Below are positions 29,358 to 34,729 of a stretch of DNA of 35,118 nt, piece after piece. Position numbers and translations under genes: made by a program. This DNA is from Christensenellaceae bacterium (GTDB taxonomy: Bacteria; Bacillota; Clostridia; Christensenellales; DTU072): the NCBI GenBank assembly GCA_031259085.1, contig JAIRMA010000043.1, positions 1 to 35,118 of the forward strand, written 5' to 3'. The notes beneath the pieces were generated by a model, which had not been told where the DNA came from, ran no database searches, and saw only the letters and a list, made by a program, of their open reading frames with translations. Each line of letters opens with the position of its first letter. Positions within the stretch are counted from its first letter, which is position 1.

Positions 29358-29906
29358 CTACTCAGCTACTTTTACCATCGCGTATCTGATAACTTTATCA
29401 TAACGCGAATACCCCTTCTGAAGTACTTCAATAACCTTTCCAGAATTTTCATTGCTACGTTCGCGCATAATAGCATTATGAAAATGTGGATCAAATTGAT
29501 CGCCTACTTCACCAAATTCAGTTACATCATATTTGGTTAGAACTGAATCAAATTGCTTACGGATCAGAGCAACACCTTCTAAAGAAGCTGTGTCTGTTAT
29601 AATCGATAGTGCTCGCTCAATTGCATCTTTCACTGGTAAAAAACTCAATATAGCTTCGCTAGAACCATCAATTTTAGCTTGTGATAAGCCCCCTTTATTT
29701 CGTTTAACATAGTTTGAGAACTCCGCTTGTAATCTTTGTATCTGTTCTAAATACATAGCGTCTTTAGCATCGGGTTCAACCTTTGGTTCACTAGCTACTT
29801 CAGCTACTGTTTCAGTAGCAACCGATTGGTCTTTAGCATCGTTACCAGTGTCAGAGTCATTAATCTTTTCGACAGTTTCTTCTGTTTTATCTTTTTTTCT
29901 ACTCAT
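29358..29906 (-). CDS. grpE: Nucleotide exchange factor GrpE
   Basis: A 182-residue protein. The charged, low-complexity N-terminus (about 1-50) is followed by the long dimer coiled coil (YLEQIQRLQAEFSNYVKRN) and the C-terminal beta domain with EFGEVGDQFDPHFHNAIMRE and VLQKGYSRYDKVIRYAMVKV, both signatures. It releases ADP from DnaK. AGGAGG lies 7 bases before the ATG; 35 bases separate it from hrcA. Confidence 0.97.
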   Translation of the reverse strand: MSRKKDKTEETVEKINDSDTGNDAKDQSVATETVAEVASEPKVEPDAKDAMYLEQIQRLQAEFSNYVKRNKGGLSQAKIDGSSEAILSFLPVKDAIERALSIITDTASLEGVALIRKQFDSVLTKYDVTEFGEVGDQFDPHFHNAIMRERSNENSGKVIEVLQKGYSRYDKVIRYAMVKVAE

Positions 29907-29941
29907 TATTATACCTCCTATTTATTAAATTCTTTATCTAA

Positions 29942-30988
29942 TTAAACCTCTGGTTCATCCTTATTCAAATCAGCATCATCTGTATTCTCCATGATAGAAT
30001 TTATTGTATTTCCAACATAAGATAGTACAGATATGACCTTGGAATAATCCATTCGCTCAGGCCCAATCACACCAGCGTGTCCAATCTCTTTACCATTGAT
30101 TGAATATCTTGCAGTTACTACCGCGCATTTATCAATCCCGTTTGTCTCTGACTTTCCAATTTTCAATGAAAATTCTATGTCAGCATTGTCACATATTAAT
30201 GCAGAAATGGACTTTTTGTCATCAATAAGTGAAAAAAAATTACGCGCACTCTCTAAGCTAGTCTCAGGATAATCCAAAACCTTCTTTTCACCCTCAGTAA
30301 TTACAGAATTCGTCTCATCTTCATAAGATAATATGATGTTCATAATGCTGTTCAGTAGCTCTCTAAATGTGTTAAGCTCCGCGTCTACTCTAGCAGAGGC
30401 TGCTTTACTCTTTATATCACCTAGTGAGCGACCTGCAAATATCTTGTTTATTAATACAGTAGCATCAGCTAAAAATGATTCATCTTGAGCATCTACTAAA
30501 ATCACTTTGTCCCGAATTATACCACTATCAGTTATAATTACAACTAAAGCAGATTTGTCATCTAGACCTATTATTTTAATGCCCTTAATATATACCTTAT
30601 TAATGTTTTTGAGAACTATGACCGATGTGTAATTGGTCATATCACTTATTACTTTAGCAGCGGTTTTGACGATCTCTTCTACTCTCAAAAACTTATTATT
30701 AAATGAAGCATTGATAGTCTCAATTTCTTCGATCTTTAATGTCTTATCGCGCAAGAAATTATCAACATAAAATCTGTATGCTAAAGGTGAAGGTATGCGA
30801 CCAGCAGAAGTGTGAGGCTGGACTAAATAACCCATATCTTCAAGCGTTGATAGCTCAGTACGAATAGTAGCTGCACTTACATCATCAAAGTATTTGTTTT
30901 TTATCTCACCTGATGAAATAGGTAGTGCTCCTTTAATGTACTCATCTACGACCGCTTTTAAAATTGTCTGTTTTCTAGTCGATAGCAT
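29942..30988 (-). CDS. hrcA: Heat-inducible transcription repressor HrcA
   Basis: A 348-residue repressor. The N-terminal winged helix (LSTRKQTILKAVVDEYIKGA then SAATIRTELSTLEDMGYL and HTSAGRIPSPLAYRFYVD) is the HrcA signature. A GAF-like domain and dimerisation part follow, with GVIGPERMDYSKVISVLSYV near the end. It binds CIRCE and represses the operon under normal conditions; the GroE chaperonin keeps it active in B. subtilis. AAGGAG is 4 bases before the ATG. The CIRCE operator lies 32 bases upstream, so it represses itself. Confidence 0.97.
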   Translation of the reverse strand: MLSTRKQTILKAVVDEYIKGALPISSGEIKNKYFDDVSAATIRTELSTLEDMGYLVQPHTSAGRIPSPLAYRFYVDNFLRDKTLKIEEIETINASFNNKFLRVEEIVKTAAKVISDMTNYTSVIVLKNINKVYIKGIKIIGLDDKSALVVIITDSGIIRDKVILVDAQDESFLADATVLINKIFAGRSLGDIKSKAASARVDAELNTFRELLNSIMNIILSYEDETNSVITEGEKKVLDYPETSLESARNFFSLIDDKKSISALICDNADIEFSLKIGKSETNGIDKCAVVTARYSINGKEIGHAGVIGPERMDYSKVISVLSYVGNTINSIMENTDDADLNKDEPEV

Positions 30989-31435: not shown

Positions 31436-31512
31436 GGGGGATTAGCTCAGTTGGCTAGAGCGCCGCGCTGGCAGCGCGGAGGTCAGGGGTTCGAGTCCCC
31501 TATTCTCCACCA
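31436..31512 (+). tRNA. tRNA-Ala (anticodon GGC), CCA encoded
   Basis: A 77-base cloverleaf. The 7-bp acceptor stem includes the alanine identity pair G3-U70. The D arm is TAGCTCAG..GGCTAGAGC. The anticodon stem CCGCG/CGCGG encloses loop CTGGCAG with anticodon GGC. The T arm is AGGGG-TTCGAGT-CCCCT (the loop is TTCGAGT). The discriminator A and encoded CCA end it. It is the last host-like feature; the DNA after it becomes GC-richer and foreign. Confidence 0.97.
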
Positions 31513-31797: not shown

Positions 31798-32076
31798 TTA
31801 ACCGGTTTTTCTTGCCTTTCGACAATAAAAAGAGCGGCAAGGTTTTTCCGCCTTGCCGCCCGTTTCCGCCTTGACCTCGGTGCCGTCCTTAAACTCGAAC
31901 GTTATGTCCTCCCGTCCTCTAACAGTTATGCGTTTGACTAGTCTTGCGAATACGTCTTTGTCAAATTCGCTTTGCCGCTCTACGCTCTCTAAAAACTCGG
32001 CGAGAATTTTCCGTCGCGCCGCGTTTAACGCGTTGTTAGTAAGCCAATCTTTTTAAAACTCTTAGTCATTAATTGC
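31798..32076 (-). pseudogene. C-terminal remnant of a serine recombinase
   Basis: In one minus-strand frame the sequence reads LNAARRKILAEFLESVERQ, then EFDKDVFARLVKRITV and FEFKDGTEVKAE. EFDxxxFxxLVxxITV followed by FxFKDGTE is the closing region of large serine recombinases (the DUF4368-like tail). The resolvase catalytic domain and zinc ribbon are missing. Upstream, MTKSFKKIGLL is in another frame, which stops right at the junction. The frame runs on through the terminator at 31834-31859 to a stop at 31798, so the original stop is probably lost. Its orientation toward the tRNA fits an integrase at the edge of an inserted element. Confidence 0.6.
31834..31859 (-). terminator. Rho-independent terminator after the recombinase remnant
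   Basis: A 9-bp stem GCGGCAAGG/CCTTGCCGC with an 8-base loop, followed on the minus strand by TCTTTTTATT. It lies at the end of the recombinase-like sequence and would end transcripts from the phage-like genes. Confidence 0.75.
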
Positions 32077-32600: not shown

Positions 32601-32996
32601 TCAATATTTAATGTAATTTGTCGAAATCTCCTCAAACCGCTTTGCGGCTCTGTCGTCAAGCCCTTTAAGTTTTCGGATTGCTTTTGTTACGAACTTCCGG
32701 GGCTTTACGGTACTACTGCCGAAGTTTAGGATGTTCGCCACTTTTTCGAGCGGAGTTCCGTATTCGTCCGTTCCATCGTAGGACAGACGATAGCCGTACT
32801 TTTTGCTTGTCGAGACATCGGCTTTGGTGAGCGAGGCGGCGAGTTTGCCGGTGTCTACGGGCGTGTCGGAACGGAGCGCGGCTTCCACCGCGTCCGTTTC
32901 GACGTCCACCTGTTCCTTTATCGCTTCCACCGCCATATCGCCGAGCTTCTCTAATTTGCCGAAATAATCCGCTAACTGTTTTGTTACTCCGTCCAT
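32601..32996 (-). CDS. HK97 gp10-like phage head-tail/neck protein
   Basis: The ATG at 32996 has GGAGG 7 bases upstream; the longer GTG frame would include that site. The product is 131 residues. EAALRSDTPVDTGKLAASLT followed by YDGTDEYGTPLEKVANILNF and KPRKFVTKAIRK is the pattern of HK97 gp10-like proteins (a PVDTGxLxxS core and a final PxxFVxxA). These proteins form part of the neck or tail completion ring. It begins 14 bases after the chaperone extension ends, whereas in siphophages this gene usually lies before the major tail protein gene. Confidence 0.75.
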   Translation of the reverse strand: MDGVTKQLADYFGKLEKLGDMAVEAIKEQVDVETDAVEAALRSDTPVDTGKLAASLTKADVSTSKKYGYRLSYDGTDEYGTPLEKVANILNFGSSTVKPRKFVTKAIRKLKGLDDRAAKRFEEISTNYIKY

Positions 32997-33009: not shown

Positions 33010-33264
33010 TTATCCACGCATCCTCCCTTTTGCCGTCATTTCCGCCACGCTCATCGGCGCGGATTTTCGGACGGTCTTGCCCTCCGCCTTCGCTAATGTC
33101 GCGCTGTCTATTTCGGACGAGTAGTGCAAGAGGTCAAACAGAACGTTCAGCCCCATATCTTCGAGCCGCACCGTCAACCCGGTCTTAATCGCGGCGTAGA
33201 GCAGTTGGCTTGTGAAGTCGCCGTCTACCTGTAAAGCGTTTTCCGGCGCGTCAACGCTAAGCCT
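33010..33264 (-). CDS. Tail assembly chaperone C-terminal extension, reached by frameshift
   Basis: Starting on the A7 run (33264-33270) inside the preceding gene, the frame offset +1 (equal to -2) stays open for 84 codons: RLSVDAPENALQVDGDFTSQ, then LEDMGLNVLFDLLHYSSEID, ending in KGRMRG. It has the same GC-rich codon use as its neighbours and no start codon or ribosome-binding site near its beginning. The position directly after a tail-chaperone-like gene matches lambda G/GT, where a frameshift adds the T domain that binds the tape measure protein. I infer a fused product of about 225 residues. Confidence 0.6.
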   Translation of the reverse strand, partial: RLSVDAPENALQVDGDFTSQLLYAAIKTGLTVRLEDMGLNVLFDLLHYSSEIDSATLAKAEGKTVRKSAPMSVAEMTAKGRMRG

Positions 33265-33694
33265 TTTTTTGAGATATGAACAGCGAGAGAAACCCCATCA
33301 GCTCGCCTATTACCTCGCGGTCGGCAAGCCAGTACGGCGGGATTTCCGTTATGATTTCGATAACGTCAACCTTTTGCGGATACCGCGCCGTGGCGATAAG
33401 GGCGGCTATAAAATTGAGCGTGAATTCGGAATCGAATTTGTAATCGGTGATTGCCGACAGCACTTTCTCCCGCGCCGCCGCAGACAGCGCGTTCAAATCC
33501 TCAACCGATTTTACCTTTAACTCGCCGAACCTTTTGACCGTTTCGGCGTCGGCGGAGTTCCTCGCAAAAGCCACGATGTCGTTCAACAGGTCGCGCCCGA
33601 AACACGATTTGTAAAGCACAAATGTCAGCGCGTTGCCGACCAACTTAATCTCGCGCCCGTCGCTATCGCGCATTGTTTTCACTAAGCCGTACAT
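33257..33694 (-). CDS. Phage tail assembly chaperone (gpG-like)
   Basis: The ATG at 33694 overlaps the major tail protein stop (TAATG) and has AAGGAGG 7 bases upstream. The product is 145 residues: MYGLVKTMRDSDGREIKLVG, ALTFVLYKSCFGRDLLNDIV, ending ELMGFLSLFISQKKA. The start pattern 'R.IKLVGNALT...YK..FGRDLL' is common in Gram-positive siphophage chaperones encoded between the major tail protein and the tape measure gene. The zero-frame stop comes two codons after CAA AAA AAG, where a shift would open the 84-codon extension. No tape measure gene follows in this window. Confidence 0.72.
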   Translation of the reverse strand: MYGLVKTMRDSDGREIKLVGNALTFVLYKSCFGRDLLNDIVAFARNSADAETVKRFGELKVKSVEDLNALSAAAREKVLSAITDYKFDSEFTLNFIAALIATARYPQKVDVIEIITEIPPYWLADREVIGELMGFLSLFISQKKA

Positions 33695-34299
33695 TAGCCC
33701 ACCTCCTTGTCGGGGATATAGATTTCGTCCTGAACGGCGCTCCAAATCTCTTTGTTGAGTTCGCTGTTTAGGATTGTGTATGAAACCTGCTGTTTCTTAT
33801 CCGCCGCGTCCGTGTAGTCGTAGGGTTGCACCTTGACGTTGAGCGTCAGGTCGCGGATTGTCTTGCCGTCGAACGAAACGCTGTTAAGGCTCGGCAGGCT
33901 GAACACGGCTTTGTACATCGTGAAAAGGCTCTCGCTCCCGTCGCCGACTTGACTGTAGTACCCGAACGCTACCTGTTTAGGGGATTTGCTCTTGCCGGAT
34001 ATGATCACCGCGCCGTTACTGTCGGTCGTAACGTTAAAGAACTTGCTGTACACCGCATACGGCAGGACGGCGAATTTGACCGTTCCCTCGCCGGTCACCG
34101 CGCTTGCAAGCGTGATAAAAGCGGGGTTATCGTCCGCGCTGATTTCCGTCACCTCTTGCGTGAATTCAATCTTGACCTCGACCAAGCCCTCGTGGTATGT
34201 TTTCTCTCCGAATGTGCCGTTACTATTCAGCGCGGCGGCGAAGAATTTCTTGTTGCCGACTTCGTAAAGCTGGCTTACGTCTACATTATTGTTTGGCAT
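33694..34299 (-). CDS. Phage major tail protein
   Basis: The ATG at 34299 has AGGAGG 5 bases upstream; the longer frame to 34401 has no such site. The product is 201 residues: VSQLYEVGNKKFFAAALNSN, FGEKTYHEGLVEVKIEFTQE, then SGKSKSPKQVAFGYYSQVGD. The short modified-immunoglobulin-like beta layout and the 'G..KFYAAL.....Y...L..V.I...Q' start resemble the TP901-1/phi13-type major tail proteins of long-tailed siphophages, which form the tail tube. It sits between the terminator-like gene and the chaperone, as in such phages. Confidence 0.78.
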   Translation of the reverse strand: MPNNNVDVSQLYEVGNKKFFAAALNSNGTFGEKTYHEGLVEVKIEFTQEVTEISADDNPAFITLASAVTGEGTVKFAVLPYAVYSKFFNVTTDSNGAVIISGKSKSPKQVAFGYYSQVGDGSESLFTMYKAVFSLPSLNSVSFDGKTIRDLTLNVKVQPYDYTDAADKKQQVSYTILNSELNKEIWSAVQDEIYIPDKEVG

Positions 34300-34315: not shown

Positions 34316-34729
34316 CTATGAATAAAGTTTTGATACGAACAGTATCTGATGGTACAGCTTCGTGTCCGGCTCGAACTGTTCTTCTTCCATCGTGACCTCA
34401 AAGCCCTTTTCGGTCAGCTTTTCTTCCAAGTGCGTAAGCGTTTCCGACAGCAATTTGCTCTCAAAACTCCGCACCGAAAACACGTCGATTTGCGCGTAAA
34501 AGTCGCGGCACAGCACCGCGTCGTCGGCTCTTTGTATCGGGTTGCTGTCTATGACCTCATATACAACGTAGTTGCCGACGAAGCCGTCGCGCGCTTTGTT
34601 GTAGTGGTAACTGAATTCGTCCCCGATTGCCGTTTCCGTCAAACCGTCCTTAAACCGCAAAGCGCGGAAAACGGCTTGCAAGTCCTTTTTGCCTTTCTGC
34701 TTTGCCCGGCCGTTGGTTATTCCCCGCAT
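34316..34729 (-). CDS. Phage tail terminator/completion-like protein
   Basis: A 137-residue protein. DFYAQIDVFSVRSFESKLLS followed by LTHLEEKLTEKGFEVTMEEE and YHQILFVSKLY fits the alpha/beta layout of tail terminator proteins (lambda gpU/SPP1 gp17-like), encoded just before the major tail protein. Identification rests on this pattern and on gene order. Its start overlaps the upstream gene by 13 bases; AGGGGG precedes the ATG. Confidence 0.6.
   Translation of the reverse strand: MRGITNGRAKQKGKKDLQAVFRALRFKDGLTETAIGDEFSYHYNKARDGFVGNYVVYEVIDSNPIQRADDAVLCRDFYAQIDVFSVRSFESKLLSETLTHLEEKLTEKGFEVTMEEEQFEPDTKLYHQILFVSKLYS

Follow-up and report, generated by a model that had tools for sequence, protein, structure and literature searches.

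The question raised by this locus is how a phage reaches the second part (T) of a tail assembly chaperone-like gene pair when T lies out of frame with the first part (G). The window (the whole stretch of 35,118 nucleotides analysed here) is contig C63 of a 2.35-Mb metagenome-assembled genome that is 92% complete. At its right end it carries, on the minus strand, a prophage piece with head closure, tail terminator and major tail protein genes, G, T and an HK97-gp10-like gene (Table 1). A programmed +1 or -2 frameshift on the A7 run at the end of G had been proposed. Following up this proposal led to what we regard as the most reportable result, a candidate prfB-type +1 signal in the tail-chaperone gene of related phages.

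Table 1. Features of the prophage piece and the neighbouring host genes in the window
Feature	Position	Strand	Basis
G, tail assembly chaperone-like ORF, 145 aa, end SQKKA-stop	33257..33694	-	phrog_709 1.4e-6; adjoins major tail protein
A7 run with in-frame A AAA AAG heptamer, directly 5' of GCT TAG	33264..33270	-	sequence
Final codon GCT and stop TAG of G, then C; slot of CTT TAR C in +1 relatives	33257..33262	-	
T, in the +1/-2 frame relative to G; 33013-33219 conserved; TAA stop at 33010-33012	33010..33297	-	
40-nt linker, G stop to conserved T core	33220..33259	-	counted by hand
HK97-gp10-like gene; next after T in all relatives	32601..32996	-	PF04883, alignment
Major tail protein	33694..34299	-	phrog_88 9.9e-18
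Tail terminator	34316..34729	-	phrog_78 2e-12
Head closure protein; just short of contig end	34717..35091	-	phrog_25, PF05521
Host hrcA and grpE, then dnaK, dnaJ, prmA; slot expected for tape-measure and later tail genes	29358..30988	-	

A chaperone-like gene pair in two frames

The 145 codons of G, on the minus strand, end with TCT CAA AAA AAG GCT TAG, the TAG being located at 33257-33259, and on re-reading, the coordinates and frames given in the original prediction were right. In the +1 (= -2) frame of G the open stretch of T extends from 33297 to 33013 and includes KKRLSVDAPENALQVDGDFTSQLLY. The -1 frame closes after KKGLALTRRKTLYR, a tail of 14 codons. As had been stated, the continuation thus lies in the +1/-2 frame, the only one in which T is open, and not in the -1 frame. 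Upstream of the conserved DFTSQLLY core no ATG, GTG or TTG is present in the T frame, and the first one is located 42 nucleotides inside the core. The second frame is thus indeed without a start of its own, and an independent start of T in the window can be ruled out.

T is a real and constrained protein and not a chance open frame, since it shares 59-68% identity with its counterparts in the four nearest homologues, retains the invariant residues and has a pN/pS of 0.32-0.37 against these homologues, similar to the 0.38 found among the homologues themselves. Traits of a tail chaperone G/GT pair were found in its position (directly after the major tail protein in the window and upstream of the tape-measure gene in relatives) and in its architecture, with a second ORF that overlaps the first, is out of frame, lacks a start and is conserved as a protein. 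The only profile match of G is phrog_709, a family of unknown function; searches of Pfam, NCBIfam and PDB gave no convincing match for the chaperone pair, and the AlphaFold model of G (pLDDT 47.7) was too poor for a structure search.

Homologous loci form a -1 and a +1 group

Twenty loci with both G and T were collected, two from bacterial contigs (L008, L009) and the others from viral contigs. G and T are out of frame in all 20, and an uninterrupted homologue with both parts in one frame, which would have spoken against a programmed shift, was found in none of them. The loci fall into two groups. T is located in the -1 frame in L012-L020, L024-L026, L045 and L052-L054, where the sites are mostly A8-A9 runs such as CTC AAA AAA AAA GAT AA (in the slipped reading). 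L026 contains AAACAAAAACAG together with a 9-bp hairpin, and L052-L054 contain A AAA AAG and a hairpin recognised by eye; apart from these four -1 loci, downstream hairpins are not clear, and they are no common feature. The second group consists of L008-L011, the four nearest homologues of the window, with T in the +1 frame. The +1/-2 offset is common to these four, and the view that the window encodes a G/GT-like pair with a T reachable only by recoding is supported.

Searching the annotated phages with three queries and scanning the viral contigs with G as a single protein gave no match. A search of genomes at the level of order, family, class and phylum added a single locus (L006, G070 C50), located in another genome of the order, in which G is broken by a frameshift and a truncation; it represents another relic of this group of phages.

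A prfB-type signal in the nearest relatives

The +1 signal of prfB consists of a Shine-Dalgarno-like 6-mer, CTTT three nucleotides downstream, a stop codon and a C (PMC12421855). At the junction of G and T, L009, L010 and L011 carry GGAGGTGGGCTTTARC, that is GGAGGT-GGG-CTT-TAR-C, with the 3-nt spacing of prfB and all features of the prfB type. L008 reads GGCGGC GGG CTT TAG C, likewise in the +1 frame, with a weak Shine-Dalgarno sequence (-5.6 kcal/mol). CTT-stop-C is thus present in all four +1 relatives and the full signal in three. Pairing with the anti-Shine-Dalgarno sequence reaches -14.0 kcal/mol at the site in L009-L011, the strongest of any position scanned in each G. These three loci are divergent, with synonymous sites near saturation, making inheritance of the signal without selection unlikely. 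A simple base count predicts about 0.17 such motifs in all DNA gathered, a number to be compared only with the three tail loci found by protein similarity, since the others were fetched by the motif itself. A DNA scan for this motif yielded six contigs, two of them with this tail gene; the other four have no such gene pair and were taken as chance matches.

For the putative +1 shift in L008-L011, the prfB mechanism is the reading with the best support. The internal Shine-Dalgarno sequence, located 3 nt upstream, would strain the P-site Leu-tRNA on CUU, which could then slip from CUU to UUU while a stop codon (UAA or UAG, followed by C) waits in the A site. L009-L011 share with prfB the 6-mer, the 3-nt spacer, CTTT, the stop, the C and the +1 product (PMC12421855), but the gene is a phage tail chaperone, the stop is TAA or TAG whereas prfB has TGA, and the window is without the signal. 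As RF2 does not recognise TAG, an RF2 feedback loop is not at work here.

Frameshifts in tail genes are known as -1, -2 and +1, the latter at CCC-stop in Listeria phages (PMC5009743), and SPP1 uses +1 at CCCUAA in its tail tube gene and -1 in its chaperone (PMC6316719). The Listeria phages PSA, A118 and A500 as well as SPP1 resemble the present relatives in shifting +1 while a stop codon occupies the A site; in contrast, their slip occurs on proline CCC and in a tail tube or shaft gene, not a chaperone (PMC5009743, PMC6316719). As in lambda gpG/gpGT, a two-part gene follows the major tail protein and T is reached only via recoding, yet lambda shifts -1 (PMC5009743) and the inner group here +1 with a prfB-type signal. 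According to PRFect (PMC10885494), every CUU-stop +1 entry in RECODE is a prfB gene, and therefore the tail chaperones would, if the reading is true, be a second use of the mechanism, with stops that remove RF2 feedback. In the openly accessible papers searched, we came across no prfB-type signal described for a tail chaperone or any other phage gene, and the novelty is provisional. The anatomy is complete in three +1 members (L009-L011) and looks independent in each, and annotators gain a search pattern for tail chaperones that appear split in the +1 frame.

The prfB match of the window's own genome (L048, G000 C58 35670-36722) is encoded in a single frame and the CTT-stop-C signal was not found in it; the RF2 of this host seems to manage without a frameshift.

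The A7 site of the window

The site in the window mixes features of the two groups: the +1 offset is that of L008-L011, and the A-run, the QKKA-stop ending and the long linker are those of the -1 loci. From the G stop to the T core the linker measures 40 nt in the window, 44-47 nt in L012 and L019 and 13-19 nt in L008-L011. The C-to-stop spacing is 11 nt in L012, L014, L019 and the window alike, which makes the linker a more plausible place for the frame change than the A-run. Several -1 relatives share the QKK[R/G/A]-stop ending and its spacing with the window, which argues against a wrong A-run length. That the A-run or the linker was misassembled or misread is scarcely credible: the contig was assembled from a metagenome and the prophage sits at its end, but the same offset is found in four independent contigs and the G ending with this A-run length is conserved.

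Alignment with the homologues confirmed only one part of the original prediction. The offset is conserved in all four nearest homologues; the A-run is conserved in none, CTT-stop-C being present instead. The junctions of L008-L011 contain no A-run and thus no conserved slip site for this offset, and the proposed +1/-2 slip on poly-A found no support in the homologues, none of which uses an A7 site in that way. In the window itself no prfB-type signal was found (CAAAAAAAG GCT TAG C, without CTT; Shine-Dalgarno energy -0.3 kcal/mol) and no downstream hairpin beyond chance (z -1.0).

The A7 run holds a perfect in-frame A AAA AAG -1 heptamer, the same as in dnaX-type -1 sites and in L052-L054, and looks like a leftover of -1 ancestors. 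The likeliest event on this heptamer is a -1 slip; unlike at a dnaX-type site, it yields in the window only the 14-codon tail and not T. Since this is the outcome of a -1 slip, and since a Shine-Dalgarno sequence and a clear hairpin are missing, our confidence that the window contains a working, putative -2 or +1 site is low. G would be made by normal translation, and a G-T fusion would require the ribosome to enter the +1 frame close to where G ends. Access to T might come from a weaker slip on the old A-run, either -2 by two Lys-tRNAs or +1 on AAA. If the window slips -2, the relative frame of T would be the same as in phage Mu (PMC5009743), a likeness of frame alone. It might also be that RNA polymerase slips on the A7 run and that the fusion is translated from an edited mRNA, for instance with A6, which would put G and T in one frame; A7 is, however, short for such slippage and no homologue of the +1 group has kept the run, making this very improbable.

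Descent of the frame offset

In a tree of six proteins the window groups with L008-L011 against the -1 loci (support 100/100) and lies outside L008-L011 (support 87/84); the tree was made without an outgroup and was rooted by assumption on the long branch that separates the two groups. A pairing of the window with the -1 locus L019 was rejected in the AU test (p=9e-34), as was L008 as the deepest branch (p=0.025). The window is therefore likely the deepest branch of the +1 group, judged from these sequences, and descent supports the view that its +1/-2 offset was inherited.

The AU test did not reject a grouping of the window with L008 (p=0.18), which would imply the loss of a prfB-like site. 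The ancestor would then have had such a site, the A-run would have re-arisen or been retained, and the present site would be inactive or weak. CTT-stop-C in all four nearest relatives, the already weak Shine-Dalgarno sequence of L008 and the TTAGCGT after the site, which matches L008, are in line with such a loss, but the long linker and the QKKA-stop ending resemble the -1 relatives and the best tree sets the window outside L008-L011; we consider this history improbable.

The account we favour, with somewhat less than even confidence, is that the window carries the remnant of a siphophage of a Clostridia-like host which inherited the +1 offset, that its relatives would use the prfB-type signal and that the window itself would use a weaker slip on the A-run. 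Under this account we infer that shifting happened, in this direction, at a site that was functional before the prophage decayed. The window might thus be an intermediate in a change of frameshift direction. That it is a surviving one is a tentative idea, less likely than not; in this series a -1 shift on an A-run would, once the linker had changed, have become a +1/-2 slip on that run and finally a prfB-type +1 shift in a phage structural gene. One gene family with a conserved T contains both -1 and +1 members and thus bears on the evolution of frameshift direction. We know of no account of how the direction of the tail-chaperone frameshift changes in evolution.

A prophage remnant and its surroundings

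In the relatives gp10 is followed by the tape-measure gene, either directly or past cargo genes; it was seen downstream in L008, L010 and L018. In the window gp10 is followed by one ORF without a family, a tRNA-Ala gene and then hrcA-grpE-dnaK-dnaJ-prmA. The tape-measure gene is absent from the window, and the 92% complete genome contains only a degenerate 38-residue match to the L008 tape-measure protein; the capsid piece of L008 used as a query gave no match there. Because the tape-measure gene was not found and host genes come next, the prophage looks like a remnant, a strong conclusion that is short of final since the genome is incomplete. The other prophage ORFs on the contig are open, about 2.5 kb including G and T.

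A remnant such as this prophage would tolerate a dead site. The locus could descend from a -1 phage with A AAA AAG in which an indel hit the linker after integration and decay, leaving T unreachable. This would fit the perfect in-frame heptamer, which is the site of the -1 relatives L052-L054, the type and spacing of the A-run, the long linker, the missing tape-measure gene and a shredded piece of a related T elsewhere in the genome. But the window groups with the +1 phages, so that the same offset would have arisen twice, and the sole lesion would have struck a 40-nt linker within about 2.5 kb of otherwise open genes. Such a late indel has in our view a fair probability, though a lower one than inheritance of the offset.

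The shredded piece (L003, contig C42 19443-19700 of the same genome, G000) is scrambled and comprises part of a related T and the start of gp10; 118 nt of T are 86% identical to the window, and unrelated AT-rich DNA lies beside it. At the prophage edge in the window, a short ORF (31853-32060, minus strand) resembles by eye the tail of a serine recombinase, with no confirming match in Pfam or PHROGs. The tRNA-Ala gene (31436-31512, plus strand), located between the prophage piece and hrcA, is a possible integration site. The cargo at the junction of gp10 and the tape-measure gene encodes a RelA/SpoT-domain protein in L008 (6734-8088) and an ArsR regulator and a methyltransferase in L031 (6997-8707).
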